NCBI RefSeq assembly: GCF_018326265.1
Contig: NZ_AP023360.1
Coordinates: forward strand, 2,595,501-2,659,500
DNA: 64,000 bases
Reading direction: 5' to 3'
Source of the DNA: Catellatospora sp. IY07-71
Lineage (GTDB): Bacteria > Actinomycetota > Actinomycetes > Mycobacteriales > Micromonosporaceae
The notes under the pieces were generated by a model. The model did no database searches. It had not been told where the DNA came from and saw nothing but the letters and a program-made list of their open reading frames with translations. Positions 2,834-63,426 of this stretch are shown one piece after another. Within the stretch, counting starts at the first letter, position 1, and every line of letters starts with the position of its first letter. The translations under genes were made by a program, and so were the position numbers.

Positions 2834-2894
2834 GATCGCGAGTTTGTGTCACAAGGTGTGGTCTGGCCACAGGTTCTGACACGAGACGGCGATC
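2834..2894. repeat. 61-bp GATC palindrome, copy A
   Basis: Member of a six-copy dispersed family in this window. The left arm begins GATCGCGAGTTTGTGTCA and the right arm ends TGACACGAGACGGCGATC. It is the most diverged copy, but the inner GTGTCA/TGACAC pair is intact. The right edge is followed by TTCGCC, as in other copies. It lies 50 bp beyond the stop of the minus-strand gene ending at 2945, in a convergent intergenic region. Confidence 0.8.
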
Positions 2895-2944: not shown

Positions 2945-3532
2945 TCAGGGGCGGCCGTAGGCGGGGCCGTCGGGGACCTTGAGGTCGGCGTCGTCGTGGG
3001 TGGTGTCGAGGAGGCCGACGGGGAGGGAGAGGTCGTGGGCCTGGTCGACGAGGTGGTCGACGACGCTGCGGGGGGCGCCGGCCAGCAGGTCCAGGGCGGC
3101 GGCGTCGAAGCCTTTGTCGCGGCACAGGCGCAGGCGATCGGTGAGGATCGGGGTGACCTGCTCCCGCAGCCGCGCCTCGGGGGCGTCCCAGCGGACCAGG
3201 CCGTCGGGGCGGGTCAGGTCGGCGGGGAAGCGGGCGGCGTCCGGCCGACCGCGCCGCACCTCGCCCAGCGGCAGGTAGCAGACCGCGCGGCGGCGTTCGG
3301 CGTGCAGGTCCTCGACCAGGGACGCGTCGGTGGTGAAGCCGTCCAGGACGAACACGTCGGCGGCGGTGACCTGCGGGGGTGCGGTCAGCGCCCACTGCCA
3401 CCGCAGGCTGTCGGGTACGGCGGGCCGGGCCGGCGCCTCGTACCAGTGGGCGGGCCGGGTGGGGGCGGCACAGGCGACGCAGGCCAGCACGACGACCGCG
3501 CTGACCGGCACCCGGACGCCCGCGACCTGCAC
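2945..3532 (-). CDS. Lipoprotein with a GH114-like (polygalactosaminidase-family) domain
   Basis: 195-aa protein starting at a GTG 5 bp after the stop of the upstream gene. The N-terminus has a hydrophobic stretch ending in VLACVAC, a plausible lipobox, so the protein is probably a membrane-anchored exported lipoprotein. The rest resembles the TM1410/GH114 family: a WQWAL motif near the N-terminus, then ADVFVLDGF, RRAVCYLPLGE, DAARFP and a CRDKGFDAAALD segment. GH114 enzymes are endo-alpha-1,4-polygalactosaminidases. The usual DN pair near the end of the KGFD motif is not clear here (LDLLAG), so activity is uncertain. It forms an operon with the Spherulin-4 domain gene. Fold assignment is moderately sure; substrate is inferred from family. 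Confidence 0.6.
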   Translation of the reverse strand: MQVAGVRVPVSAVVVLACVACAAPTRPAHWYEAPARPAVPDSLRWQWALTAPPQVTAADVFVLDGFTTDASLVEDLHAERRRAVCYLPLGEVRRGRPDAARFPADLTRPDGLVRWDAPEARLREQVTPILTDRLRLCRDKGFDAAALDLLAGAPRSVVDHLVDQAHDLSLPVGLLDTTHDDADLKVPDGPAYGRP

Positions 3533-24093: not shown

Positions 24094-26364
24094 ATGGGCC
24101 CGGGGAACGTCGCGACTTCCGCATCGGACAGCGTGGCGGGCCCCGGGCCCGACTATGCGCGCCTGGCACAACGTGATCCCGCCTCGGTCGGCGCGCTCGC
24201 CCGCAGCGCCCGTGCCGACGCGCTGGACGCCTGGCTCAACCGGCTGCTGCCGGACACCCCCGGCGTCGCCCTCGTCGCGGTCGGCGGGCTCGGCCGCCGC
24301 GAGTGCACCCCGCACGGCGACCTCGACCTGATCCTGGTGCACGCCGGGGTCCCGCGGGTCGACGAGCTGGCCGCCTCGCTGTGGTATCCCGTCTGGGACG
24401 CCCGGATGGGGCTGGACCACTCCACCCGCACCGTCGCCGAGTCCCTCGACGCCGCCCACGACGACGTCAAGGTCGCGCTCGGCCTGCTCGACGCCCGCCA
24501 CGTGGCCGGCGACCCGGCGCTGTCCGCCCAGCTCGCCCGCGCCGCCGTGGACCAGTGGCGGCGCACCGCCCGCCGCCAGCTCATGCGGCTGCGCGAACTC
24601 GTCGAGGAGCGCCACGCCGCCCACGGCGAGCTGGCGTACCTGCTGGAGGGCGACCTCAAGGAGGCCGCGGGCGGCCTGCGCGACGTGGGCGTGCTGCGCG
24701 GCATCGGCGTCGCCGGGGTCGCCGACGCGCTCCCGCCGCAGGTGCGCGCCGCCGCCACCCGGCTGCTCGACGTACGCGACGCGCTGCACGTCAGCATCGG
24801 GCGGCGCAACGACCGGCTGCGCGCCGAGGAGCGCCTGCAGGTGGCGGAGCTGCTCGGCCTGTCCGACGGCGACGCGCTGCTGCGCCGGGTCGGGCTCGAC
24901 GCGCGTACCGTCGCCTGGTCCCTCACCGACGCGTGGCGCTCCGTGCAGCGCTGGCACGCCGCAGCGGTACGCAACGGCGATCCGCGCGCCCGCGAGGCGT
25001 CGTCCGTACGTCGCCCCGTGGCCCGCGACGTCGTCGCCGTGGACGGGGAGATCGTGCTGGCCCGCGCCGCCGTCGGCCCGCACCCCGACCCGTCGCTGTC
25101 GCTGCGGGTCGCGGCCGCCGCCGCGCAGCACCAGATGCCCATCGCACGGGCCACCCTGGAATGGCTCGCCCGGTTCTGCCCGCCGCTGCCCACCCCGTGG
25201 CCGCCCGCCGCGCGCACCGCGCTGCTGACCCTGCTCGGCGCCGGCACCGGCCTGGTCACCGCCTGGGAGGCGTGCGACCGGTTCGGGCTCACCTCGGCCT
25301 GGCTGCCGCAGTGGACCCGCCTGCGCGGCACCCCGCAGCACCACCCGGTGCACCGCTTCACCCTCGACCGGCACCTCGTCCAGGCCGCCGCGAACGCCTC
25401 CCGCTGGTCGCGCGAGGTGGCCCGGCCCGATCTGCTGGTGCTCGGCGCGCTGCTGCACGACGTCGGCAAGGGCCTGCCCGGCGACCACAGCGAGGTCGGC
25501 GCCGACCTGGCCCGCGAGATGGCGGCCGCGATCGGCCTGCCGCCCGCCGACGTCGACACCATCGCCACCCTGGTCCGCTACCACCTGGTGCTGCCCGACA
25601 CGGCAACCCGGCGCGACCTCGACGACCCGGCCACCATCAACCACGTCGCCAAGCTCGTCGGTGACGCCGGCACGCTCGAACTGCTGCAGATGCTCGCCCG
25701 CTCGGACGCCGCGGCGACCGGCCCCGGCGCGTGGTCGGCGTGGAAGTCGAAGCTCATCGACGACCTGTGCCACCGCGTACGCAAGGTCCTCGGCGGCGGG
25801 CCGCTGCCCGAGCCCACCCCGCCCGACCCGGCGCTGCTGGCCGGGCCGCTGCCCGTGGTCCAGGTCGCCGACGACTGGGTGGCGCTGGCCGCCCGCGACC
25901 GGGTCGGGCTGCTCGCCGCGGTCGCCGGATGCCTCGCCACGCACAAGCTGGAGATCGTCGCGGCCGGCTCGTCGACCATCGGCGAGCGGGCGATCATCGA
26001 GTGCGCGGTGAACAACCGGTACGGCACGCCGCCGGATCGGGAGCTGCTCGCGGCCGACCTGCGCCGGGTGGGGCTGGACCAGCTGCCCCTGCCGCGCCGG
26101 CTCGGCAACGGGGGCGGGAAGCGGCCCGCCGGGGCCGAGCCCCGGGTGATCTGGGGCGAGGCGACCGGGGCGACGCTGCTGGAGCTGCGGGCCACCGACG
26201 CGCCGGGCCTGCTCTACCGGGTCACCTCGGCGCTGGCCGCGCTCGGTGTGGACGTCCGGACGGCCCGCGTGTCCACCCTCGGCGCCGACGTGGTGGACGC
26301 GTTCTACCTGGTCGGCGACGTCGACCGCGACGCGGTGGAGGCGGCCGTCCTGGCGGCCGTCTGA
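24094..26364 (+). CDS. glnD: PII uridylyl/adenylyl-transferase and deadenylylase
   Basis: 756-aa bifunctional nucleotidyltransferase acting on PII. The N-terminal nucleotidyltransferase motif is GGLGRRECTPHGDLDLILVH. A central region leads to the HD hydrolase domain (LGALLHDVGKGLPGDHS), which removes the nucleotide, and two ACT domains at the C-terminus (starting near DDWVALAARDRVGLLAAV and GATLLELRATDAPGLLYRV) sense glutamine. Actinobacterial homologues adenylylate rather than uridylylate PII; that specificity is from the family. Starts 19 bp after glnB. A 61-bp palindrome lies 36 bp beyond the stop. Confidence 0.96.
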   Translation: MGPGNVATSASDSVAGPGPDYARLAQRDPASVGALARSARADALDAWLNRLLPDTPGVALVAVGGLGRRECTPHGDLDLILVHAGVPRVDELAASLWYPVWDARMGLDHSTRTVAESLDAAHDDVKVALGLLDARHVAGDPALSAQLARAAVDQWRRTARRQLMRLRELVEERHAAHGELAYLLEGDLKEAAGGLRDVGVLRGIGVAGVADALPPQVRAAATRLLDVRDALHVSIGRRNDRLRAEERLQVAELLGLSDGDALLRRVGLDARTVAWSLTDAWRSVQRWHAAAVRNGDPRAREASSVRRPVARDVVAVDGEIVLARAAVGPHPDPSLSLRVAAAAAQHQMPIARATLEWLARFCPPLPTPWPPAARTALLTLLGAGTGLVTAWEACDRFGLTSAWLPQWTRLRGTPQHHPVHRFTLDRHLVQAAANASRWSREVARPDLLVLGALLHDVGKGLPGDHSEVGADLAREMAAAIGLPPADVDTIATLVRYHLVLPDTATRRDLDDPATINHVAKLVGDAGTLELLQMLARSDAAATGPGAWSAWKSKLIDDLCHRVRKVLGGGPLPEPTPPDPALLAGPLPVVQVADDWVALAARDRVGLLAAVAGCLATHKLEIVAAGSSTIGERAIIECAVNNRYGTPPDRELLAADLRRVGLDQLPLPRRLGNGGGKRPAGAEPRVIWGEATGATLLELRATDAPGLLYRVTSALAALGVDVRTARVSTLGADVVDAFYLVGDVDRDAVEAAVLAAV

Positions 26365-26400: not shown

Positions 26401-26461
26401 GATCGCGGTCTCGTGTCGAAAGGTGTGGTCCAGGCATAGGTTTCGACACGAAACGCCGATC
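26401..26461. repeat. 61-bp GATC palindrome, copy B
   Basis: Left arm GATCGCGGTCTCGTGTCGAA, right arm ending TTTCGACACGAAACGCCGAT plus C. Complementary flanks CGCGAA and TTCGCG extend the hairpin to 26395-26467. It is 36 bp after the glnD stop. The left arm carries the GCGGTCTC variant while the right arm matches the GGCGTTTC variant seen in copy C. Confidence 0.88.
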
Positions 26462-26665: not shown

Positions 26666-28222
26666 GTGTTTGACACCCTGAGCGACCGGCTCTCCGGCAT
26701 CTTCTCCAAGCTGCGGAGCAAGGGCCGGCTCACCGACGCCGACGTGGACGCCACCGCCCGCGAGATCCGGCTGGCGCTGCTGGAGGCGGACGTCGCGCTG
26801 CCGGTGGTGAAGGCCTTCATCTTCCGGCTCAAGGAGCGGGCGCGCGGCGCGCAGGTGTCGCAGGCGCTCAACCCGGCGCAGCAGATCATCAAGATCGTGC
26901 ACGAGGAGCTGGTCGCGGTGCTGGGCGGCCAGGCCCGGCGGCTCCAGTTCGCCAAGCAGCCGCCGACCGTGATCATGCTGGCCGGTCTGCAGGGTTCCGG
27001 TAAGACCACCCTGGCCGGCAAGCTGGCCCGCTGGCTCAAGGCGCAGGGCAACCAGCCGCTGCTCGTCGCGGCCGACCTCCAGCGCCCGAACGCGGTGAAC
27101 CAGCTGCAGGTCCTCGGCCAGCGCGCCGGCGTCGAGGTGTACGCGCCGGAGCCGGGCAACGGCGTCGGCGACCCGGTGCAGGTCGCCAAGGACTCGATCG
27201 AGCACGCCCGCCGCCACATGCGCGACATCGTGATCGTCGACACGGCGGGCCGGCTCGGTATCGACACCGAGATGATGGCGCAGGCCGCCTCGATTCGCGA
27301 CGCGGTCAACCCGGACGAGGTCATCTTCGTCATCGACGCGATGGTCGGCCAGGACGCGGTCGCCACGGCCGAGGCGTTCCGCGACGGCGTGGGCATCACC
27401 GGTGTCGTGCTCTCCAAGCTCGACGGCGACGCCCGCGGCGGTGCCGCGCTGTCGGTGCGCGAGGTCACCGGCCAGCCGATCCTGTTCGCGTCCACCGGCG
27501 AGAAGCTGGAGGACTTCGACGTCTTCCACCCCGACCGGATGGCCAGCCGCATCCTCGGCATGGGCGACGTGCTGACCCTCATCGAGCAGGCCGAGCAGGC
27601 CTTCGACGAGGAGCAGAAGGAGAAGATGACGGCGAAGCTGCTCGGTGGCGAGCAGTTCACGCTGGAGGACTTCCTGGACCAGCTGATCGCCGTCCGGCGG
27701 ATGGGCCCGATCGCCAACCTGCTCGGCATGATGCCCGGCATGGGCCAGATGAAGGACCAGCTCGCCGAGCTTGACGACAGCCACTTCGACAAGGTCACCG
27801 CGATCATCCGCTCGATGACCCCGGGCGAGCGCGCCACCCCGAAGATCCTCAACGGCTCGCGCCGGGCGCGTATCGCGCGTGGCTCCGGCGTCACCGTCAC
27901 CGACGTGAACCAGCTGCTCAACCGCTTCGAGCAGGCGCAGAAGATGATGAAGCAGATGGGCGGCATGATGGGCCTGCCCGGCGGCGGGCGCCGCAAGGCC
28001 ACCAAGTCGCCGAAGAACAAGCGCAAGGGCACCAAGGGCGGCGGCGGCCCGCGCGGCGGCTTCCCGGCCGGCCTGCCCGGCGGTATGCCCGGCATGCCGC
28101 AGCTGCCCCCGGGCATGGACCCGGCGGCGCTGGAGCAGCAGATGGGCGGCGGCAGCCCGTTCAAGGCGCCGAAGCTCGATTTCGGCAAGCTGACCCGCCG
28201 CGACGACGACAAGAACAAGTAG
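26666..28222 (+). CDS. ffh: Signal recognition particle protein Ffh
   Basis: 518-aa SRP54 GTPase that binds signal peptides and 4.5S RNA. The GTG start gives VFDTLSDRLSGIFSKL. GTPase motifs: GLQGSGKTTLAGKLA (G1), DLQRPNAVNQL, DTAGRLGID (G3) and SKLDGDARGGAAL (G4/G5). The C-terminal M domain has methionine-rich helices and the RNA-binding SRRARIARGSG motif. It is followed by a Lys/Gly-rich tail longer than in E. coli and repeated GGMPGMPQLPPGM residues. It partners with FtsY at 19959. A strong GATC-capped hairpin lies 11 bp after the stop. Confidence 0.97.
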   Translation: MFDTLSDRLSGIFSKLRSKGRLTDADVDATAREIRLALLEADVALPVVKAFIFRLKERARGAQVSQALNPAQQIIKIVHEELVAVLGGQARRLQFAKQPPTVIMLAGLQGSGKTTLAGKLARWLKAQGNQPLLVAADLQRPNAVNQLQVLGQRAGVEVYAPEPGNGVGDPVQVAKDSIEHARRHMRDIVIVDTAGRLGIDTEMMAQAASIRDAVNPDEVIFVIDAMVGQDAVATAEAFRDGVGITGVVLSKLDGDARGGAALSVREVTGQPILFASTGEKLEDFDVFHPDRMASRILGMGDVLTLIEQAEQAFDEEQKEKMTAKLLGGEQFTLEDFLDQLIAVRRMGPIANLLGMMPGMGQMKDQLAELDDSHFDKVTAIIRSMTPGERATPKILNGSRRARIARGSGVTVTDVNQLLNRFEQAQKMMKQMGGMMGLPGGGRRKATKSPKNKRKGTKGGGGPRGGFPAGLPGGMPGMPQLPPGMDPAALEQQMGGGSPFKAPKLDFGKLTRRDDDKNK

Positions 28223-30439: not shown

Positions 30440-30528
30440 CCGCCGTGATCGTCCGACTTGCCTGGCAGATGTGCGTATCTCGGCCGCGCATACGCCCATG
30501 TGCCTGGCAAGTCGGACGATCACGGCGG
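30440..30528. repeat. Long perfect-arm hairpin between amidohydrolase and proS
   Basis: Two perfect 28-bp arms (30440-30467 and 30501-30528) enclose a further partly paired core with ATG.GCGTAT on each side. GATC occurs inside both outer arms (30447 and 30518), 75 bp end to end. It starts 40 bp after the amidohydrolase stop, so it may be its terminator, though it lacks a T tract. A short CCG-rich run precedes it. Confidence 0.8.
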
Positions 30529-32670: not shown

Positions 32671-33321
32671 ATGCGTTTCGAACCAGGACGGGTGATCCTG
32701 CACCGTCACTTCCACGGCCACCGCATCGGCCTGCTCAAGACGGCCGTGGTGGCCGCCGACGACGAGCAGGGCCTGCTGCTCTGGGTGCCGCGCGGCGCCC
32801 CGATGCTGGACCGGCTGGCGGTGGACCGGCGCGGGCTGCGCTCGATGCCCTTCGCGGAGTGGATCGGCGTCGAGACGAAGCTGTGGGAGGTCTCCTGGAC
32901 CGGCCCGAGCCTGCTCAAGTGGCTGCCCCGCGGCGAGGACCACTCGGTGTGGTTCTTCCGGGACGAGGACGGCCGGTTCACCCGGTGGTACGTGAACCTG
33001 GAGGAGTCCGGGGTGCGCTGGGACGACGGGCACGTCGCGGGGGTCGACATCGTGGACCAGGACCTCGACATCGTGGTCACGCCGGACCGGTCGTGGCGCT
33101 GGAAGGACGAGGAGGAGTTCGCCGAGCGCCTGGCGTATCCGCAGCACTACTGGGTGGCCGACGGCGAGGCGGTGCGCGCCGAGGGCGAGCGCGTGGTGAA
33201 GCTGATCGAGGCGGGCGCGTTCCCGTTCGACGGCACCTGGTGCGACTTCCAGCCAGACCCGTCCTGGACCGTCCCCACCGAGGTCCCGGCCGGCTGGGAC
33301 CGCCCCCGCGCCCGAAATTGA
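32671..33321 (+). CDS. DUF402-family protein, first of a tandem pair
   Basis: 216 aa. The family pattern WFFRDEDGRFTRWYVNLEE, then DIVDQDLDIVVTPDRSWRWKDEEEF, is well conserved. Relatives of this fold include the staphylococcal nucleoside tri-/diphosphate phosphatase Ntdp, so a nucleotide-phosphatase role is possible but unproven. The C-terminus has AFPFDGTWCDFQPDPSW and GWDRPRA, both repeated in the downstream paralogue. It is soluble, with no signal peptide. A small ATTGACCGG/CCGGTCAAT hairpin overlaps the stop (33317-33339). Confidence 0.82.
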   Translation: MRFEPGRVILHRHFHGHRIGLLKTAVVAADDEQGLLLWVPRGAPMLDRLAVDRRGLRSMPFAEWIGVETKLWEVSWTGPSLLKWLPRGEDHSVWFFRDEDGRFTRWYVNLEESGVRWDDGHVAGVDIVDQDLDIVVTPDRSWRWKDEEEFAERLAYPQHYWVADGEAVRAEGERVVKLIEAGAFPFDGTWCDFQPDPSWTVPTEVPAGWDRPRARN

Positions 33322-33339
33322 CCGGTCCGTCCGGTCAAT
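33317..33339 (+). terminator. Small hairpin at the end of the first DUF402 gene
   Basis: ATTGACCGG and CCGGTCAAT are perfect 9-bp arms around a 5-nt loop, overlapping the stop codon. There is no T tract, so terminator function is only likely. Confidence 0.5.
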
Positions 33340-33358
33340 GCCGCCCGCCCAAGGTGAT

Positions 33359-33419
33359 GATCGGCGTTTCGTGTCGAAACCTCGGGCCTGACCTTAGGTT
33401 TCGACACGAAACGGCGATC
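33359..33419. repeat. 61-bp GATC palindrome, copy C (best-paired)
   Basis: 24-nt arms with only one mismatch surround a 13-nt loop. The left arm starts GATCGGCGTTTCGTGTCG and the right arm ends CGACACGAAACGGCGATC. Flanking GAT and ATC extend the pairing (GATGATC/GATCATC). It is 37 bp beyond the stop of the first DUF402 gene and about 55 bp before the second. Confidence 0.9.
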
Positions 33420-33459
33420 ATCCGCAGATTCGCGGACCTCGCGCCGCCGGATGCGCCGG

Positions 33460-33465
33460 TATGGT
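33460..33465 (+). promoter_or_regulatory. Candidate -10 box, leaderless second DUF402 gene
   Basis: TATGGT, 8 nt before the ATG at 33474; no ribosome binding site. Confidence 0.4.
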
Positions 33466-33473
33466 CCCGGCGT

Positions 33474-34142
33474 ATGTATTTCGAACCCGGACAGACCGTG
33501 CTGCGCCGGTGCTGGCGCGGTGGGCGGATCACGTTCCTGCAGGCCACCCGTGTGATCGAGGACGGTGAGCGAGGGCTGCTGCTGTGGCAGCCCGCCGGTG
33601 CGACGTACTGGCGGATCATGACCGCCGACGGGCGTACCCACCACGATGGCACCCTCGACGAGCTAGGTCCGGACACGCAGCTGCGGCCGCTGGTGTGGGC
33701 CGGCAACGATCTGCTGGTGTGGCAGCGGCCGGGGGAGCCGTGGTCGGTGTGGTGGTTCTTCCGGGAAGGGCGCTTCCTGAGCTGGTACGGCAACCTGGAG
33801 GAGCCCTTCGTGCGCTGGCGCGACGGCGCGGTGTGCGGGGTGGACTTCGCCGACAACGCCCTCGACGTGCTGGTCGAGCCGGATCTGAGCTGGCGCTGGA
33901 AGGACGAGTCGGAGCTGGCCGCCCGGACCGGGCACCCGCACTACTGGGACGCCGCCCAGGCGGCCGCGATCCGCGCGGACGGGGAGCGGCTGATCGAGAT
34001 CGCGTCGTCGGGCGCGTTCCCGTTCGACGGGACCTGGTGTGACTTCCGTCCCGGCGCGGCGTGGCCCGTGCCGCGGCGCACAGCGGGTTGGGACCGCCCG
34101 CGCGCGGTGTGGACAGATCCGTCTGGCACAATGGCTAGCTGA
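33474..34142 (+). CDS. DUF402-family protein, second of a tandem pair
   Basis: 222 aa, paralogous over its whole length to the preceding gene: both start M-x-FEPG, share GLLLW, the WFFR-GRF-WY-NLEEPFVRW block, LDVLVEPDLSWRWKDESEL, AFPFDGTWCDF and GWDRPRA. The charged residues of the DUF402 core (Asp, Glu and Lys of the WKDE region) are retained in both copies. It probably has the same kind of activity with a shifted substrate or expression. It immediately precedes the rpsP operon, separated by about 120 bp. Confidence 0.8.
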   Translation: MYFEPGQTVLRRCWRGGRITFLQATRVIEDGERGLLLWQPAGATYWRIMTADGRTHHDGTLDELGPDTQLRPLVWAGNDLLVWQRPGEPWSVWWFFREGRFLSWYGNLEEPFVRWRDGAVCGVDFADNALDVLVEPDLSWRWKDESELAARTGHPHYWDAAQAAAIRADGERLIEIASSGAFPFDGTWCDFRPGAAWPVPRRTAGWDRPRAVWTDPSGTMAS

Positions 34143-40286: not shown

Positions 40287-40874
40287 ATGAAACCGATCCG
40301 GGCCACGCTGGTCCTGCTGCTCGTGGCCACCTCCGTCGTGGCCCCACCCGACGTCCCGCCCGCCACGGCCCGCGCCGTCTCGTCCCTCGCCGCCGCGGGC
40401 GGGTGGCGGTGGCCGCTGGTCGGCACGCCGCGGCCGATGCGCCTGTTCGATCCGCCGCCGGAGCGGTGGCTGCCGGGGCACCGCGGCGTCGACCTCGCCG
40501 CCGCGCCCGGCACCCCGGTGCTGGCCGCGGCCGCCGGCACCGTCGTGTACGCCGGGCGCCTGGCCGGGCGCGGCGTCGTCAGCATCGACCATCCGGGCGG
40601 GCTGCGCACCACCTATGAGCCCGTCGACGTGTCGGTCGAGGCCGGTGCCGAGGTCGTCGGCGGGGAGGCGCTGGGCACGCTCACCGCGGGTCACCCCGGC
40701 TGCCCCGCCGCGGCCTGCCTGCACTGGGGGCTGCGGCGGGGGCCGGTGTACCTCGACCCGCTGACCGTGCTGGGGCTCGGCCGGGTCCGGCTGCTGCCTA
40801 CTTCCGCAGCAGCGCCGGCAGGCCCTCGGCGAGCCGCTCGTACTCGGCGGCGCGGTTGTAGATCTGCGCGCTGA
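40287..40874 (+). CDS. M23-family peptidase (LytM-like), exported
   Basis: 195 aa. A signal peptide (MKPIRATLVLLLVATSVVAPP) is followed by a LytM/M23 domain: GHRGVDLAAAPGTPVLAAAAGTVVYAG with the His and Asp zinc ligands, SIDHPGGLRTTYEPV, and CLHWGLRRGPVYLDPL, in which the third ligand His is kept but the first residue of the usual HxH is Cys. The product probably cleaves peptidoglycan cross-bridges or is a regulator of such enzymes. The conserved part ends near 40797; the last 25 residues overlap the convergent aminotransferase gene and are likely unstructured. Confidence 0.85.
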   Translation: MKPIRATLVLLLVATSVVAPPDVPPATARAVSSLAAAGGWRWPLVGTPRPMRLFDPPPERWLPGHRGVDLAAAPGTPVLAAAAGTVVYAGRLAGRGVVSIDHPGGLRTTYEPVDVSVEAGAEVVGGEALGTLTAGHPGCPAAACLHWGLRRGPVYLDPLTVLGLGRVRLLPTSAAAPAGPRRAARTRRRGCRSAR

Positions 40875-41976
40875 GGCGCACGAACGCGCGGTCCCGCCAG
40901 ACCATCACGTTGACCTCGGCGGCGAGCTCGTCGGCGATGCGGTTGCGCAGCGCGGCCGCCGCGTCGTGATCGGTGACCAGGCCGTCGGGCACCGGCAGCA
41001 GCCGCATGCTCACGTGCTCGCCCGGGTCGGGCAGCTCCGTCGGGTCGACGCCGAGCGCCTCGCCGACCACGCGCTGACCGTACGCGGCCAGCTCCGCGTT
41101 GTGCCGCTGGATCGTGTCGAAGCCGTACCGCTCGAACAGGCTCAGGCCCGTCGGGGCGGCCAGCCATGGGCTGTGGTCCACCGTGCCCTGCTGCTCCAGG
41201 AAGGCGGGGAAGCCGTCCGGCTGCGAGTGCGAGACGACCAGCGGCACCATGCGCTCCCGCCACCACGGTGCGACCCGGAACAACGCCGTGCCCGCGGGCG
41301 CGAAGCCCCACTTGTGCAGGTTGCCGACCCAGAAGTCGGCCTCCAGGCCTCGTGCCGGGTGGGCCAGCATGCCGGGCGCGTGCGCGCCGTCCACGAGCAG
41401 CGGCACGCCGCGCTCGCGCAGCGCGGCGGCGATCGCGCCGACCGGATGCCGCTGCGCCGTCGCCGACGAGACCTGGTCCACGATGACCAGGCAGGTGCGC
41501 TCGCTCGCCCTCGACAGCACGGCCTCGGCGGTCTCGGCGTCGGTCGAGTCCAGCTCGACCGGGACCGTCACCACGCGCACCCCGTGCCGCTGCGCCACCT
41601 CGGTCAGCGCCAGCCGGACCGCGTTGTAGCCGTGGTCGGTGACCAGGATCTCGTCGCCGGACCGCGGCGCGACGGCCGCCAGCACCAGCGCGGTCGCGGT
41701 GGTGGCGTTCGCGACGAGCGCGCTGTCGTCCGGGTCCGCGCCGCAGAAAGCGGCCAGCGTGGCACGGGCCGCCGCCACCCGCTCCCACAACCCCGCGTTG
41801 GTCACGAACCGCACCGGGTTCGCGTCGTGCTCGTCGATGAGGCGCTGCCGGGCCGCCCGGACCGGGGCCGGCACCGCGCCGAACGAGCCGTGGTTCAGGT
41901 GCGCGACGGCCGGGTCCAGCGCGAACAGGTCACGGCTGCCGTCCAGCGGGGCGGGTGCTACACGAGAGGTGATCAC
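40798..41976 (-). CDS. Class V PLP-dependent aminotransferase (isopenicillin N epimerase-like)
   Basis: 392 aa. Fold-type I PLP enzyme with HLNHGSFGAVP near the N-terminus, VVNATTATALVLAA-like ANATTATALVLAA phosphate-binding segment, LLVDGAHAPGM for the pyridine-nitrogen Asp, and the Schiff-base lysine in VGNLHKWGFAPAG. The closest named relatives are isopenicillin N epimerase (CefD) and the ergothioneine lyase EgtE. With no beta-lactam or ergothioneine genes nearby, the substrate remains open. The GTG has TAGACT 8 nt upstream and no ribosome binding site. Its 3' end overlaps the M23 gene by 77 bp. Confidence 0.85.
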   Translation of the reverse strand: MITSRVAPAPLDGSRDLFALDPAVAHLNHGSFGAVPAPVRAARQRLIDEHDANPVRFVTNAGLWERVAAARATLAAFCGADPDDSALVANATTATALVLAAVAPRSGDEILVTDHGYNAVRLALTEVAQRHGVRVVTVPVELDSTDAETAEAVLSRASERTCLVIVDQVSSATAQRHPVGAIAAALRERGVPLLVDGAHAPGMLAHPARGLEADFWVGNLHKWGFAPAGTALFRVAPWWRERMVPLVVSHSQPDGFPAFLEQQGTVDHSPWLAAPTGLSLFERYGFDTIQRHNAELAAYGQRVVGEALGVDPTELPDPGEHVSMRLLPVPDGLVTDHDAAAALRNRIADELAAEVNVMVWRDRAFVRLSAQIYNRAAEYERLAEGLPALLRK

Positions 41977-42092: not shown

Positions 42093-42153
42093 GATCGCGG
42101 CTTCGTGTCGGAAAGTGAGGCTGAGCCACACCTTCCGACACGAGACCGCGATC
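42093..42153. repeat. 61-bp GATC palindrome, copy D
   Basis: Left arm GATCGCGGCTTCGTGTCGGA, right arm ending TTCCGACACGAGACCGCGAT plus C. The inner pair is GTGTCGGAA/TTCCGACAC where copies B and C have GTGTCGAAA/TTTCGACAC, a compensatory change. It is followed by TTCGCC. It lies 34 bp beyond the dprA stop (minus strand). Confidence 0.88.
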
Positions 42154-42187: not shown

Positions 42188-43420
42188 TCAGGGGGTGGGC
42201 CGCCGGGCCGGGCGGGGGCGGGAGTAGGCGCCGGACTGTTCGCGCAGGTGGCCGCGCAGGGCCAGGGAGGGGAGCCGGGCCAGGGCGTCGCGCAGGGAGA
42301 CCCCGGCCGCGGCGGCGATCTCGGTGGCGTGGGCGGTGCCGCGCCGGGGGACCGCGTCGACCAGCTGGCGTTCCACCGGGTCGAGGGCGTCCAGCGGCTG
42401 TTCCGCGCCGCGCGGCACGGGAGCGAGATCGCCGATCCCGCCCACCTCCTCCAGGATGTGATCCACCGAGGCGACCAGGCGCACCGGTTCGTCCGGCCCG
42501 CGCCGCAGCTCCTCGTGGCACCCCACCGACATCTCCGAGGTGATCGGTCCCGGCACCGCCATCGCCGCCCGGCCCAGCTCCCGGGCCCGCCGCAGCGTCT
42601 GCCGGGCGCCGCTGCGCGCCCCCGCCTCCACCAGCACCGTGCCTCGCGCCAGCGCCGCGATGACCCGGTTGCGCACCAGGAAGCGCATCTTGAACGGCGC
42701 CGTGCCCGGCGGCCACTCGCTGATCAGCAGCCCCTCCTCGGCGATCTGCTCGAACAGGGCGCTGTTGCTCAGCGGGTACGGCCGGTCCACCCCGCAGGCG
42801 AGCACCGCCACGGTCAGCCCGCTCGCCGCCAGCGCGGCCCGGTGCGCGACCGCGTCGATGCCGTACGCGCCGCCGGACAGCACCGTCCACCCCCGATCGG
42901 CCAGGCCGTAGCCCAGCTCCGCCGCGGCGTGCGCGCCGTACACGGTGTTGGCGCGGGCGCCGACCAGTGCGACCGAGCGCCCGGCCACCTCGCCCAGCGC
43001 GTGCGGCCCGCGCAGCCAGATGCTCTGCGGCGGGAACGTGTCCCGGTCGATGGTGGACGAGGTGTCCCGGCTGATGTGCCGCAGGTCGGCCAGCTGCGCG
43101 GGCCATTCGGCGGACTCCGGAGTGATGACGCGTACGCCCAGCCGCGCGGCCCGCTCCCACAGCCGCCCGGCCAGCTCGGCGGCGGGGCGGCCCTGCAGGC
43201 GCAGCGCCGCGGCCTCGGCGAGCGGTCCGGACTCCAGCCCGGACGCGAGCCGGTCCAGCGCCTCGACGGGTCCGTGCGCGCTGACCAGCCGGTGCAGCGC
43301 GGCGCTGCCCGGTTCGACGAGGCAACCGAGCACGATGCGTGCGTCGCGGACCGTCAGGGTGTCGACGCCGTCCGGCGCGCCGGGTTCGGGATCGGTCGGG
43401 GTGGGTTCGGGACGGGTCAT
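42188..43420 (-). CDS. dprA: DNA processing protein DprA
   Basis: 410-aa DprA/Smf-type single-strand DNA-binding and RecA-loading protein. The Rossmann core is well conserved: SVALVGARANTVYG, TVLSGGAYGIDAVAH, AVLACGVDRPYP, GLLISEWPPG, RNRVIAALARGTVLVEAGARSGA and AMAVPGP. A C-terminal winged-helix domain (from DPVERQLVDAVPRRG) completes it. It is the last gene of the yraN-comM-dprA operon; its ATG overlaps the comM stop by 4 bp. In most actinobacteria natural competence is unproven, so the physiological role is uncertain. Confidence 0.94.
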   Translation of the reverse strand: MTRPEPTPTDPEPGAPDGVDTLTVRDARIVLGCLVEPGSAALHRLVSAHGPVEALDRLASGLESGPLAEAAALRLQGRPAAELAGRLWERAARLGVRVITPESAEWPAQLADLRHISRDTSSTIDRDTFPPQSIWLRGPHALGEVAGRSVALVGARANTVYGAHAAAELGYGLADRGWTVLSGGAYGIDAVAHRAALAASGLTVAVLACGVDRPYPLSNSALFEQIAEEGLLISEWPPGTAPFKMRFLVRNRVIAALARGTVLVEAGARSGARQTLRRARELGRAAMAVPGPITSEMSVGCHEELRRGPDEPVRLVASVDHILEEVGGIGDLAPVPRGAEQPLDALDPVERQLVDAVPRRGTAHATEIAAAAGVSLRDALARLPSLALRGHLREQSGAYSRPRPARRPTP

Positions 43421-52298: not shown

Positions 52299-53354
52299 GT
52301 GAGCTCGCATGGTCAGCGGTTCCGCCGGCGTGCGATGCGCCGGGGCTACAAGGTCGACGAGGTCGACACGTTCCTGGACCGGGTGGAGGCGACCCTCAAC
52401 GGTTCCCCGGCCGGTCCTGACGTGCGTTCGCAAGAGGTCCGGGACGTCGTCTTCCGGGTGCGCTTCGGCGGTTACGACGAGTGGCAGGTCGACCTGCACC
52501 TCGACCGGGTGGAGCGCCAGCTCGCCGAGCTGGAGGAGCGCCCGGCCGCGCCCGGCCGCGGCGCCGAGCTGCGCGCCAGCATGAGCCCGCCGCCGCCCGC
52601 GCCGCCCGCGCCCGCGCCGATGCCGGACCGGATGGGCCCGCCGCCGCCTCCGCTGCCCACCCGCACGCCCGCCGCCAGCGCGCCGACCGGCGCCCTGCCG
52701 CGCTTCGAGCCGCGCTACGAGGAGCAGCAGCCCCAGTTCGCCGGGCAGGGCATGGTGCCCGGCCCGCAGAGCAGCTTCGACGGCTTCGGCGGCGGCCAGG
52801 GCCGGGCCGACATGACCAGCGAGATCCGCATGCAGCCGCAGCCGCCGCGCAACGAGCCGCCGCGCATGCCGGAGCCGCCCCGCGTCGACCCGTACGGGCC
52901 GAGCAGCGGCTTCGGTTCGGTGACCGCGCAGCAGCCGGTGTACCGCGACACGCCGCCGCGCGGCGGGTACGACGCCGACGCCACGAACACGTTCAACGCG
53001 GTGCCCCCGGCTCCGGCGGTGTCCTCCTACGGCGGCGGCGGGTACGGTCCGCCTCCGCCGCCGCCCCCCGCGGCGCCGTCCGTGCCGTCCGGTCCCGCCT
53101 ACACGGGCGAGCTGGCCCGGGTGGACCAGCTGCGGCGCACGTTCCAGCTGCGGCGCTTCGGCAGCGGTTACGACCCGCAGCAGGTGGACCGGCTGTTCGA
53201 GACCGCGCTCAGCTCGCTGGCCGGCCGCAGCGGCGGCCCGGTCAACGACAGCGAACTCGACCCGGGCCGGCTCAACCTGGTCCCCGGCGGCTACTACGAG
53301 GCCGAGGTCGAGCAGGCCCTGCGCGACCTCCGCGAGATCGTCGGGCGGCGCTGA
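52299..53354 (+). CDS. DivIVA-motif protein with proline-rich linker
   Basis: 351 aa, GTG start after GGAGGTAA. Two DivIVA-like helical motifs are visible: FRRRAMRRGYKVDEVDTFLDRVEATL at the N-terminus and FQLRRFGSGYDPQQVDRLFETAL near the C-terminus. They flank a ~200-aa Pro/Gly/Ala-rich disordered linker with several aromatic-Gly spots. The architecture suggests a pole- or septum-associated scaffold, but it differs from classical Wag31, which has one N-terminal domain and a long coiled coil. Function is inferred only from the motif. Confidence 0.7.
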   Translation: MSSHGQRFRRRAMRRGYKVDEVDTFLDRVEATLNGSPAGPDVRSQEVRDVVFRVRFGGYDEWQVDLHLDRVERQLAELEERPAAPGRGAELRASMSPPPPAPPAPAPMPDRMGPPPPPLPTRTPAASAPTGALPRFEPRYEEQQPQFAGQGMVPGPQSSFDGFGGGQGRADMTSEIRMQPQPPRNEPPRMPEPPRVDPYGPSSGFGSVTAQQPVYRDTPPRGGYDADATNTFNAVPPAPAVSSYGGGGYGPPPPPPPAAPSVPSGPAYTGELARVDQLRRTFQLRRFGSGYDPQQVDRLFETALSSLAGRSGGPVNDSELDPGRLNLVPGGYYEAEVEQALRDLREIVGRR

Positions 53355-53381: not shown

Positions 53382-53442
53382 GATCGGCGTTTCGTGTCAA
53401 GATCTGCACTCAAACCGCGGATCTTGACACGAGACAGCGATC
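53382..53442. repeat. 61-bp GATC palindrome, copy E
   Basis: Left arm GATCGGCGTTTCGTGTCAAG, right arm ending TTGACACGAGACAGCGATC. The inner helix is GTGTCAAGATC/GATCTTGACAC, a paired sequence change relative to copies B-D. The flanks CTGGAAGG and CCTTCCAG extend pairing to about 53371-53455. It lies 27 bp after the DivIVA-motif gene. Confidence 0.88.
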
Positions 53443-53553: not shown

Positions 53554-53775
53554 TCAGTCGCGCAGGCCGTTGCGGCGCAGCACCACGTCGATGATCAGGA
53601 TGGCGGCGAGCGTCGCGGCGACGCCGATCAGCCAGAGGGTCTCGACGTTGCCCTCGTGGTTGCCGAACAGCATCAGCAGCAGCATGACGATCACCACGAC
53701 CCCGGCCACCCGGGCGGCCTTCACCGGCGTGGGAGTGTGCTGGTCGGGCGAGGTTACCGGCTCTTCTGCGGCCAC
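53554..53775 (-). CDS. Small membrane protein, DUF2631
   Basis: 73 aa. Two adjacent membrane helices (VAGVVVIVMLLLMLF and VETLWLIGVAATLAAILII) are separated by GNHEGN, with a basic C-terminus RRNGLRD. The LMLFGNHEGNVETLWLIG pattern matches what I know of the actinobacterial DUF2631 family, often near rlmN and dxr. Function unknown. The GTG start follows AGAAGGA. Confidence in the family is moderate. Confidence 0.7.
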   Translation of the reverse strand: MAAEEPVTSPDQHTPTPVKAARVAGVVVIVMLLLMLFGNHEGNVETLWLIGVAATLAAILIIDVVLRRNGLRD

Positions 53776-61214: not shown

Positions 61215-63323
61215 ATGTTCGCGTGGTGGGGGCGGGCCGTGGTCCGATTGCGCTGGCTGGTGCTGGCCGTCGCGGCGGCGGTCGTGGTCATCGGGGCGAC
61301 GTGGGGTGGCGGCGTCTTCAACGACCTGATCAGCGGCGGGTTCGACGACCCGGGCAGCCCGAGCAGCCGGGCACACCGGGAGATCACCGCCCAGCTCGGG
61401 CGGCAGGACGTCGACATCCTGGCGCTGTACTCCTCGGACAGCCTGACCTACGACCAGCCCGCGTTCCGGGACGCGGTCACCGCCGTCGCGACGGAGCTGT
61501 CCGGGCGGCCCGAGGTGACCAGCGTCGTCGGCGCGTACACCCCCGGGGTGCCGCCGCGCTTCGCCTCCGCCGACGGGCACGCCACCTACCTGGCGATCCA
61601 ACTGCGCGACGGGGACGAGAACAGCAAGCTCGCCGACCTGGCCGCACTGCGGCCCGAGCTGGCCGCCGCAGGGCTGGAGACCGAGGTCGGCGGGCTGATG
61701 CCGTTCCTCGACGACGCCAACACGCAGATCAGCGACGACATCACCAAGGCCGAGCTGATCAGCCTGCCGATCCTGCTGGTGCTGCTGGTCTTCATCTTCC
61801 GGGGGCTGGTCGCGGCGGCCACGCCGCTGTTCGTCGGCATCCTCGCGGTGCTCGGGGCGTTCATCGCGGTGCGCCTCATCGCGCAGGTCACCGACGTGTC
61901 GGTGTTCGCCGTCAACATCATCACGATGCTCGGCCTGGGCATGGCCATCGACTACGCGCTGTTCGTGGTCAGCCGCTTCCGCGAGGAGCTGGCCGCCGGG
62001 CGCACGCCGGCCGAGGCGGTCGCGCACACGCTGGCCACGGCCGGGCGCACCGTGCTCGTCTCCGGGCTGACCGTGGCGCTCGCGCTGGCCAGCCTGCTGA
62101 TCTTCCCGATGGACTTCCTCAAGTCCATGGCCTGGGGCGGCATGGCCGCCGTGCTGGTCGCCATGCTCGCCGCGCTCACGGCGCTGCCCGCCCTGCTCGC
62201 GGTGCTCGGGCCGAAGGTCAACGCGCTGCGCGTACCGCTGCCGAAGATCTTCTCGCCGAAGGCGGCGGGTGAGGGCGGCTGGGCCCGCATCGCCCGCAGC
62301 GTCATGCGCCGCCCGGTGGTGTACGCGCTGGCCGTGGCCGCGTTCCTGGCGCTCATGGCGACGCCGTTCCTGGGCGCGAAGTTCGGCGGGTTCGACGAGC
62401 GGGTGCTGCCCGCGGGCACCGAGTCGCGCACCGTCACCGAGCGCATCGCCGCCGAGTTCCCGGGTGGCAGCGCCGCGCCGATCAGCGTGCTGGTCGTCGG
62501 GTCCGGCGCCGAGGACATGCTGGCCCGGGTCAAGGCCGTCGCGGGAGTCACGGACGCCGCGATCACCGCGCAGCGGGGGCAGGCGACGCTGATCTCGGCG
62601 TCCTACCCCGGTGAGCCCGCCGACGAGAGCGCTCGCGACATCGTCGACCGGATCCGGGAGCTGCCCGCGCCCGCGGGGGCGGAGGTGCTGGTCGGTGGGC
62701 GCACCGCGGCCGACCAGGACCAGCTGGAGTCGCTCGGCTCGCGGCTGCCGTGGATGCTCGGCATGGTCGCGGTCAGCACGTTCCTGCTGCTGTTCCTGGC
62801 CTTCGGGTCGGTGGTGCTGCCGCTCAAGGCGATCGCGATGAACGTGATCTCGATCGGGGCGTCGTTCGGGGTGGTCGTCTGGATCTTCCAGGACGGGCAC
62901 CTGTCGGAGTGGCTCGGCTTCACGGTCACCGGGTTCCTGGAGCCGGGGAACATGGTGCTGATGCTGGCCGTGCTGTTCGGGCTGGCCACCGACTACGAGG
63001 TGTTCCTGCTGTCCCGGGTGCGCGAGGAGTGGGACGCGACCGGGGACAACACCCAGGCCGTCGCGTCGGGCCTGCAGCGCACCGGCGGGATCATCACCGC
63101 GGCGGCGCTGCTGCTGATCGTGGTGCTGGGCGGGTTCGCCACCGGCGGCGCGACCACCATCAAGGTGCTCGGCATCGGCATGGTCGTCGCGGTCGCCATC
63201 GACGCCGCGCTGGTCCGGGCGGTGCTGGTGCCCGCCACGATGCGCCTGCTGGGCCGGTGGAACTGGTGGGCGCCCGGCCCGCTCCGCCTGGTCTACCGCC
63301 GCTACGGCCTCAAGGAGGCCTGA
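61215..63323 (+). CDS. MMPL-family RND transporter
   Basis: 702-aa membrane transporter of the MmpL/YdfJ type. Two repeats of TM1 + loop + five TMs are visible. The proton-relay Asp-Tyr residues are GLGMAIDYALFVVSRFREEL in the first half and GLATDYEVFLLSRVREEW in the second half. The ATG at 61215 has GGAAGGGA 5 nt upstream; a start at 61173 would add 14 residues. It is divergent from a TetR gene, a common drug- or lipid-export arrangement. Confidence 0.93.
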   Translation: MFAWWGRAVVRLRWLVLAVAAAVVVIGATWGGGVFNDLISGGFDDPGSPSSRAHREITAQLGRQDVDILALYSSDSLTYDQPAFRDAVTAVATELSGRPEVTSVVGAYTPGVPPRFASADGHATYLAIQLRDGDENSKLADLAALRPELAAAGLETEVGGLMPFLDDANTQISDDITKAELISLPILLVLLVFIFRGLVAAATPLFVGILAVLGAFIAVRLIAQVTDVSVFAVNIITMLGLGMAIDYALFVVSRFREELAAGRTPAEAVAHTLATAGRTVLVSGLTVALALASLLIFPMDFLKSMAWGGMAAVLVAMLAALTALPALLAVLGPKVNALRVPLPKIFSPKAAGEGGWARIARSVMRRPVVYALAVAAFLALMATPFLGAKFGGFDERVLPAGTESRTVTERIAAEFPGGSAAPISVLVVGSGAEDMLARVKAVAGVTDAAITAQRGQATLISASYPGEPADESARDIVDRIRELPAPAGAEVLVGGRTAADQDQLESLGSRLPWMLGMVAVSTFLLLFLAFGSVVLPLKAIAMNVISIGASFGVVVWIFQDGHLSEWLGFTVTGFLEPGNMVLMLAVLFGLATDYEVFLLSRVREEWDATGDNTQAVASGLQRTGGIITAAALLLIVVLGGFATGGATTIKVLGIGMVVAVAIDAALVRAVLVPATMRLLGRWNWWAPGPLRLVYRRYGLKEA

Positions 63324-63365: not shown

Positions 63366-63426
63366 GATCGCGGTCTCGTGTCGAAAAGTGCGCTTGAAGC
63401 CCACCTTTGGACACGAGATCGCGATC
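63366..63426. repeat. 61-bp GATC palindrome, copy F
   Basis: Left arm GATCGCGGTCTCGTGTCGAA, right arm ending GGACACGAGATCGCGATC, followed by TTCGCG. One inner mismatch (GTGTCGAAA against TTTGGACAC) is present. It is 42 bp after the MMPL stop. Confidence 0.88.

Follow-up and report, generated by a model that had tools for sequence, protein, structure and literature searches.

The six 61-bp palindromes in the window analysed here belong to a genus-wide family of Catellatospora elements that have a fixed length, are placed at the 3' ends of genes and, in several of the genomes, form arrays with helical spacing. The window is the whole 64,000-nucleotide stretch at positions 2,595,501-2,659,500 of the chromosome of Catellatospora sp. 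IY07-71 (genome G000; 8,595,826 bp in one contig). We suggest that the elements are REP/REPIN-like and act as double-stranded DNA sites for a putative, cooperatively bound protein, a reading in which we place about as much trust as doubt. A first-pass annotation of the window had described the six palindromes. We confirm this observation and extend it; helical phasing, species-specific cores and a 75-bp sister family go beyond it. The palindromes of the window, none with an assigned strand, are given below with their neighbouring genes, which were called with our own codon-usage-score script and are uncurated.

2834..2894, no strand, 61-bp palindrome in the convergent gap between an Fpg/MutM-like gene (1820-2674, +) and a GH114-like gene (2945-3532, -)
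26401..26461, no strand, 61-bp palindrome with a GlnD-like gene (24094-26364, +) on the left and an SRP54-family gene (26666-28222, +) on the right
33359..33419, no strand, 61-bp palindrome flanked by DUF402 genes (32692-33321, + and 33474-34142, +)
42093..42153, no strand, 61-bp palindrome 3' of a DprA-like gene (42188-43420, -) and 5' of a class-V aminotransferase gene (40798-41976, -)
53382..53442, no strand, 61-bp palindrome after a gene with a weak DivIVA match (52335-53354, +) and before a small called gene (53554-53724, -)
63366..63426, no strand, 61-bp palindrome 3' of an MMPL-family gene (61215-63323, +)
30447..30521, no strand, 75-bp sister palindrome, intergenic, GATC..GACTTGCC..GGCAAGTC..GATC

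When the coordinates were re-read, all six copies proved exact, each measuring 61 bp from GATC to GATC. As annotated, they start with GATCG, end with CGATC, and carry CGTGTC (five copies) or TGTGTC (one copy) in the left arm and GACACGA in the right arm. Among YGTGTC/GACACR pairs lying 6-300 bp apart in the window, six have an offset of 33, and the three other offsets present are seen in one pair each. The pattern CGTGTC N{20,35} GACACG is found five times in the window against 0.28 expected, and none of 100 shuffles reached five. Folded as single-stranded DNA, the six copies have z-scores of -2.6 to -9.6.

Each element consists of two head-to-head half-sites, which read A/T A/T GATCG N9 GTC and onwards. 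The letters GATCG and GTC are near-invariant, and positions 20-21, 24 and 27-28 are conserved as well. The element is flanked on the left by A or T in 203 of 204 copies and on the right in all 204; one base further out, A or T stands in 185 and 189 of the 204, respectively. In strain IY07-71 and C. bangladeshensis, nearly every copy has the core TCGTGTC. Of the 82 complete pairs found in 1.68 Mb of the IY07-71 chromosome, 79 have an inner gap of 27 bp and three have one of 26 bp, which refutes varying length. Single half-sites were rejected as dispersed units; 88 of 123 lie inside genes in the same 1.68 Mb. One 400-kb stretch holds 57 half-sites, of which 22 belong to complete pairs; the same bases shuffled once gave 26 half-sites.

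The whole-genome count likewise refutes the possibility of few copies: a length-tolerant pattern has 223 forward matches in the 8.6-Mb chromosome, and the reversed control pattern has none. Depending on the pattern, 208-224 copies are counted in strain IY07-71 and 220-239 in C. bangladeshensis (G002). The strict TCGTGTC pattern matches 7 of 151 genomes, all seven of them in the genus. With a looser core (GATCG N9 GTC .. GAC N9 CGATC), all 11 genomes of the genus are positive, with 20-239 copies each; among 239 Micromonosporaceae genomes from outside the genus, 36 have one or two matches each and the rest have none. Among the matches listed, those outside the genus are of variable length and bear no resemblance to the element. 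The family is therefore genus-wide and, at this sensitivity, absent outside the genus. A scan of genome contigs gave at least 120 loci, all from Catellatospora. A distant search of a plasmid collection with one copy gave 22 weak partial matches, all with less than 80% query coverage, and viral contigs gave no exact match. Rfam gave no match at gathering score for the whole window, and 11 microRNA matches, all far under their cut-offs, for positions 33300-33480 at E up to 1. Among the open-licence PubMed Central papers listed in literature searches, none dealt with the palindrome family in its title or abstract opening.

Within the IY07-71 chromosome, the stretch around dnaA (1.2-1.6 Mb) has 27 copies per Mb and the one containing the window has 95; three other stretches have 45-60, and the region opposite dnaA (5.4-6.0 Mb) has 17. 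A gradient from origin to terminus was considered and dropped, the density being uneven and without a simple gradient.

The sister family, searched by its arm motif GACTTGCC, has GATC ends and measures 75 bp in 21 of 22 copies, 20 of the 22 lying in convergent or codirectional gaps. By BLAST, it occurs at 39 places in 2.08 Mb of the IY07-71 chromosome, all intergenic. The two families have GATC ends, fixed length and intergenic placement in common, and differ in length and in arm sequence.

Intergenic bias, one of the checks proposed in the first-pass annotation, is complete in the 1.68 Mb: all 82 copies lie between genes, 40 in convergent, 38 in codirectional and 4 in divergent gaps. Counted over gaps of at least 61 bp in this region, divergent gaps make up 29% and convergent gaps 13% of the gap bases. 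The stop of the upstream gene is the nearer gene end for 33 of the 38 codirectional copies. A larger set of 245 copies was drawn from strain IY07-71, C. bangladeshensis and other loci of the genus, dropping copies in which fewer than 17 of the 30 positions were paired and counting orthologues apart. It contains 94 convergent, 106 codirectional and 9 divergent copies, 34 at locus edges and 2 inside called genes, and 88 of the 106 codirectional copies are nearer to the upstream stop.

Several sites of the window are occupied in C. bangladeshensis. This species has a copy at the 33359 site, two palindromes 104 bp apart at the 26401 site, three copies at the 42093 site, two of them with altered cores, and the orthologous copy plus a second one 115 bp further at the 63366 site. 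Six other genomes in the alignment of the 42093 site have no copy there. C. bangladeshensis (G002:C31:141930-141947) also lacks about 633 bp corresponding to window positions 33422-34054, including most of the second DUF402 gene. The break of this alignment gap lies at most 3 bp from the right end of the 33359 element, and the element may therefore be a breakpoint.

The motif is kept where its surroundings are not. Of 68 IY07-71 copies, 24 had an alignment spanning the element; in these 24 orthologous comparisons, which mix species distances and concern copies picked by their core, positions 1-5, 11-17, 21 and 24 differ in 0-6%, the flanks in 19.7% and the variable positions of the element in up to 48%. 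The proposal of a structured element under selection is supported by motif positions that are kept at orthologous sites while the flanks diverged, and by arms that covary in solitary copies (see below).

The core is species-specific. At the 26401 site, it reads CGTGTC in C. bangladeshensis, CCGGTC in C. vulcania (G007) and GCGGTC in genome G001. Each of these cores is accompanied by the matching change in the other arm, and the palindromes of C. vulcania and G001 have the same length. A further comparison used 56 elements from five other species, namely the 61-bp rows listed for them, leaving out three rows of other lengths and four rows from genome G008. Here, the arms agree beyond expectation at positions 7, 12-14, 18, 19 and 23, where between none and six of 500 shuffles score as high; no clear excess is seen at positions 8, 9, 11, 21 and 25-30. 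Gene conversion between copies could be the source of part of the core changes and the arm agreement.

Copies were divided into array copies, with a further half-site motif within 140 bp, and solitary copies. Arm matching is 0.615 in solitary copies against 0.484 expected (n=158), and 0.447 in array copies against 0.454 expected (n=87); for solitary copies taken without the palindrome filter, z is 10.0 (n=162). The matched arms of solitary copies may point to a function as a hairpin or cruciform, or to a process of copy correction. In 25 two-copy arrays, the left arm of the first copy resembles that of the second (z 2.9) and the right arms resemble each other similarly (z 2.8), and arrays therefore grow at least partly by duplication. 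Strain IY07-71 and C. bangladeshensis do not always have the same number of copies at a site; the difference amounts to exactly one unit (105 or 116 bp) at some sites and comes with other length changes at others. At four loci (L014, L020, L044 and L081, of which L020 and L044 are orthologous) an extra single half-site, oriented like the near half of a full element, lies 24 bp away from that element, which looks like a duplication of half an element.

In arrays, neighbours lie tail to tail, and the linkers between them measure about 10, 21, 33, 44, 54 and 65 bp, in steps of about one helical turn. In strain IY07-71 and C. bangladeshensis, the classes are 20-22, 33-34, 42-47, 52-55 and 64-66 bp. 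The 33 linkers of IY07-71 measure 20, 22, 33 (five times), 43 (twice), 44 (13 times), 45 (twice), 52, 53, 54 (three times), 55 (twice), 65 and 78 bp, giving R=0.89 at a period of 10.8, or 0.90 without the 78-bp linker, which looks like a chance match. The 42 linkers of C. bangladeshensis give R=0.87 at the same period, and one linker of 86 bp occurs at a locus of this species. Among the matches listed, linkers in genomes G005 and G009 fall at 10-11, 20-23 and 32 bp, with a few longer ones (51, 55, 56, 65 and 73). The 52 listed for G009 (13 of 10-11 bp and 36 of 20-22 bp, then 32, 55 and 65) have R=0.95, and the 28 listed for G005 have R=0.85 at period 10.8. Seven further G005 matches and two further G009 matches, the latter with linkers of 41-50 bp, come on top of these counts. 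Phasing is less sharp in G008 (n=22, R=0.74), where linkers of 52-81 bp have no clear phase.

Some arrays of strain IY07-71 and C. bangladeshensis are orthologous, and these two genomes are therefore not independent. Of 25 IY07-71 linkers, 12 have a counterpart of similar sequence in C. bangladeshensis; the lengths agree within 2 bp in ten of the 12 and differ by 11 and 12 bp in the other two. Here, resemblance between linkers was the sole criterion of orthology, and of the 12 alignments three are weak, including that of the 22/33 pair (11 bp); a false match would agree too, because nearly all linkers are in phase already. When one linker was taken per sequence cluster, leaving out those over 100 bp (next-nearest neighbours, 114-148 bp), the resulting 44 linkers had a best period of 10.9 with R=0.87. 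R did not exceed 0.51 in 2000 random sets, or 0.55 in a further 2000 whose values were jittered by at most 8 bp. Across sets, the fitted period is 10.45-11.15. By arithmetic, GTC cores are about three turns apart within an element and near-whole turns apart across linkers.

The inner gap itself may also step. In 18 distinct adjacent pairs at G005, G008 and G009 loci, it is 27 bp in 11 pairs, 37-38 bp in six and 67 bp in one. Three loci (L241, L243 and L248, from G009 and G005) are dense half-site mosaics with inner gaps of 27 or 37-38 bp and linkers of about 10 or 21 bp, in genomes with GGTC-type cores. Pair matches are few in genomes G001, G003, G004, G006, G007 and G010 (0-2 per genome, six in all) and, taken together, show no periodicity; arrays are therefore not general. 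In a 1.9-Mb part of the IY07-71 chromosome that includes the region opposite dnaA (G000:C1:4394200-6284436), no phased array pair with a linker of 20-81 bp was seen. Pairing of arms tail to tail between neighbours was rejected for the set of IY07-71 and C. bangladeshensis type (138 against 158 expected; z -1.3), and G009 has weak excesses at single positions only.

The phasing speaks for a protein that binds double-stranded DNA, and the helical-turn spacing suggests one-sided binding. In brief, the putative protein would bind the head-to-head half-sites with their 27-bp gap as one symmetric unit, and bound units would contact their neighbours cooperatively. Neighbouring elements would then be held on the same face of the helix, and the outer linkers, as well as the inner gap of G005/G009 type (27 or 37-38 bp), would therefore step by one turn. 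Sites at 3' ends, above all in convergent gaps, and rare in divergent ones, may have an architectural or topological role as a boundary, supercoil or nucleoid site, which would be the kind of role proposed for REP/BIME elements.

By placement and anatomy, the element resembles a REP dimer or REPIN, and two defining features, association with a RAYT and a self-folding REP, fail. REPINs are described as inverted REP doublets (Bertels and Rainey 2011, PMC3116915). The likeness to REPINs as reported there lies in the inverted conserved pair with a variable middle, the hairpin of the whole unit, the high extragenic copy number and the occurrence as singles and clusters. According to the same source, ordered REPIN clusters consist of near-identical tandem units with flanks, next to a few unordered clusters of unrelated REPINs; here, in contrast, the outer linkers are quantised by the helical turn and their sequences differ. 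Each REP is a small stem-loop, whereas the 30-nt half-site folds no better than shuffled sequence (-6.5 against -6.1 kcal/mol in 120 of the 245 copies). For GTAG/CGTC REP dimers, it is reported as a rule of thumb that head-to-head spacers are conserved and tail-to-tail spacers variable (PMC3733652). Our elements are like these dimers, as described in that paper, in the spacer rule and in lying in convergent and unidirectional gaps near 3' ends. They differ in that the consensus, by inspection, has GATCG ends and a GTC core and no GTAG/CGTC foot tag, and in that the tail-to-tail spacers are mostly multiples of about 10.5-11 bp.

The placement would also fit bidirectional terminators or 3'-end RNA hairpins, in which the transcript of the palindrome folds and ends or protects the transcripts of the flanking gene or genes. 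The high share of convergent copies (40 of 82, against 13% of gap bases) and the nearness of codirectional copies to the upstream stop (33 of 38) speak for this, as do the strong fold of the whole element (mean -34.1 against -16.3 kcal/mol shuffled, in 120 of the 245 copies) and the matching of arms in solitary copies and not in arrays, which would fit if one hairpin is enough. An intrinsic terminator should however be followed by a T-run, and none is seen after the element, the next 12 nt containing one to three T in 233 of 294 cases. The sense strand has no clear RNA wobble asymmetry either (GT 206 against AC 178), and a hairpin needs neither the fixed length of 61 bp, nor the conserved GATCG and GTC letters, nor the helical spacing. 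We consider a role in RNA unlikely as the main explanation, and assign a similarly low probability to a second alternative, that the elements are non-autonomous mobile palindromes (REPIN/MITE-like) moved by an unrecognised enzyme, with new copies entering beside the enzyme on a resident copy and so becoming phased. In favour of such movement are the numerous scattered copies of one fixed length, a second family of 75 bp that shares the GATC ends, and sites whose copy number differs from that in C. bangladeshensis, some by one array unit (105 or 116 bp). The copies are diverse, however, two of three sites compared are occupied in other species too, and the motif letters are kept at orthologous sites. 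Two aligned absences of a single copy show no clean target duplication, their flanks having diverged.

The search for an enzyme bears on the same question. Y1 transposase (PF01797) matches occur in 6 of the 11 genomes of the genus and none in C. bangladeshensis, with its 239 copies, nor in G005, G007, G008 and G009. The matches do not track copy number, unlike in the REPIN/RAYT system, and a RAYT/Y1 mobiliser is not supported. Five intact full-length matches have frames of 150-157 aa, which we take to be the size of IS200 TnpA rather than of RAYT. No autonomous transposon with the same ends was recognised in 1.68 Mb (about one fifth of the genome), the transposase search being that for PF01797. 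Nor did inspection by eye of the single half-sites in this region reveal a pair flanking a gene, as would be expected of the transposase gene between matching arms that the first-pass annotation had proposed to look for. Its suggestion of a mobile unit of REP/MITE type thus holds for placement and anatomy and is conjectural where mobility is concerned. Least probable to us are sites for DNA gyrase or another wrapping enzyme, with the array placing a topoisomerase at points of positive supercoil build-up, namely 3' ends and convergent gaps. The placement logic is the same, BIME-2 of E. coli is reported as a gyrase target, and the period of 10.45-11.15 is close to the 10.75-bp periodicity of the gyrase motif given in that report (PMC6379681). 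BIME-2, which is described there as binding a DNA enzyme, is like our element in forming arrays of intergenic palindromes and unlike it in sequence and in host; for our element, binding of this kind is putative. A period near 10.5 would nevertheless come from any B-form DNA, no sequence evidence links gyrase to the motif, and a universal enzyme leaves a genus-restricted motif with species-specific cores unexplained.

The reading as sites of cooperative protein binding to double-stranded DNA has its own difficulties. The covariation of arms in solitary copies (z 10) is not expected of a plain dimer site, and a hairpin or cruciform fits it better; part of the similarity within arrays is duplication, which we also count against this reading. 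The six genomes with hardly any pairs, the unclear phase of the longer G008 linkers and the shared arrays of strain IY07-71 and C. bangladeshensis weigh against it as well. The four readings are not strictly exclusive.

Whether REP-like palindromes work at the RNA level, spread by selfish mobility or shape DNA topology is a standing question, all three having been proposed. Helical-turn spacing, kept across dissimilar linkers and in genomes with different cores, is a signature of double-stranded DNA binding that can be read from sequence, and it turns the function of REP-like elements into a testable question. For Catellatospora, we tentatively speculate on a genus-specific chromosome-organising system, in which a dedicated protein, with a recognition core divergent between species, would bind the palindromes at gene ends and form in-phase, one-faced arrays, and in which solitary and array copies would be two working states.
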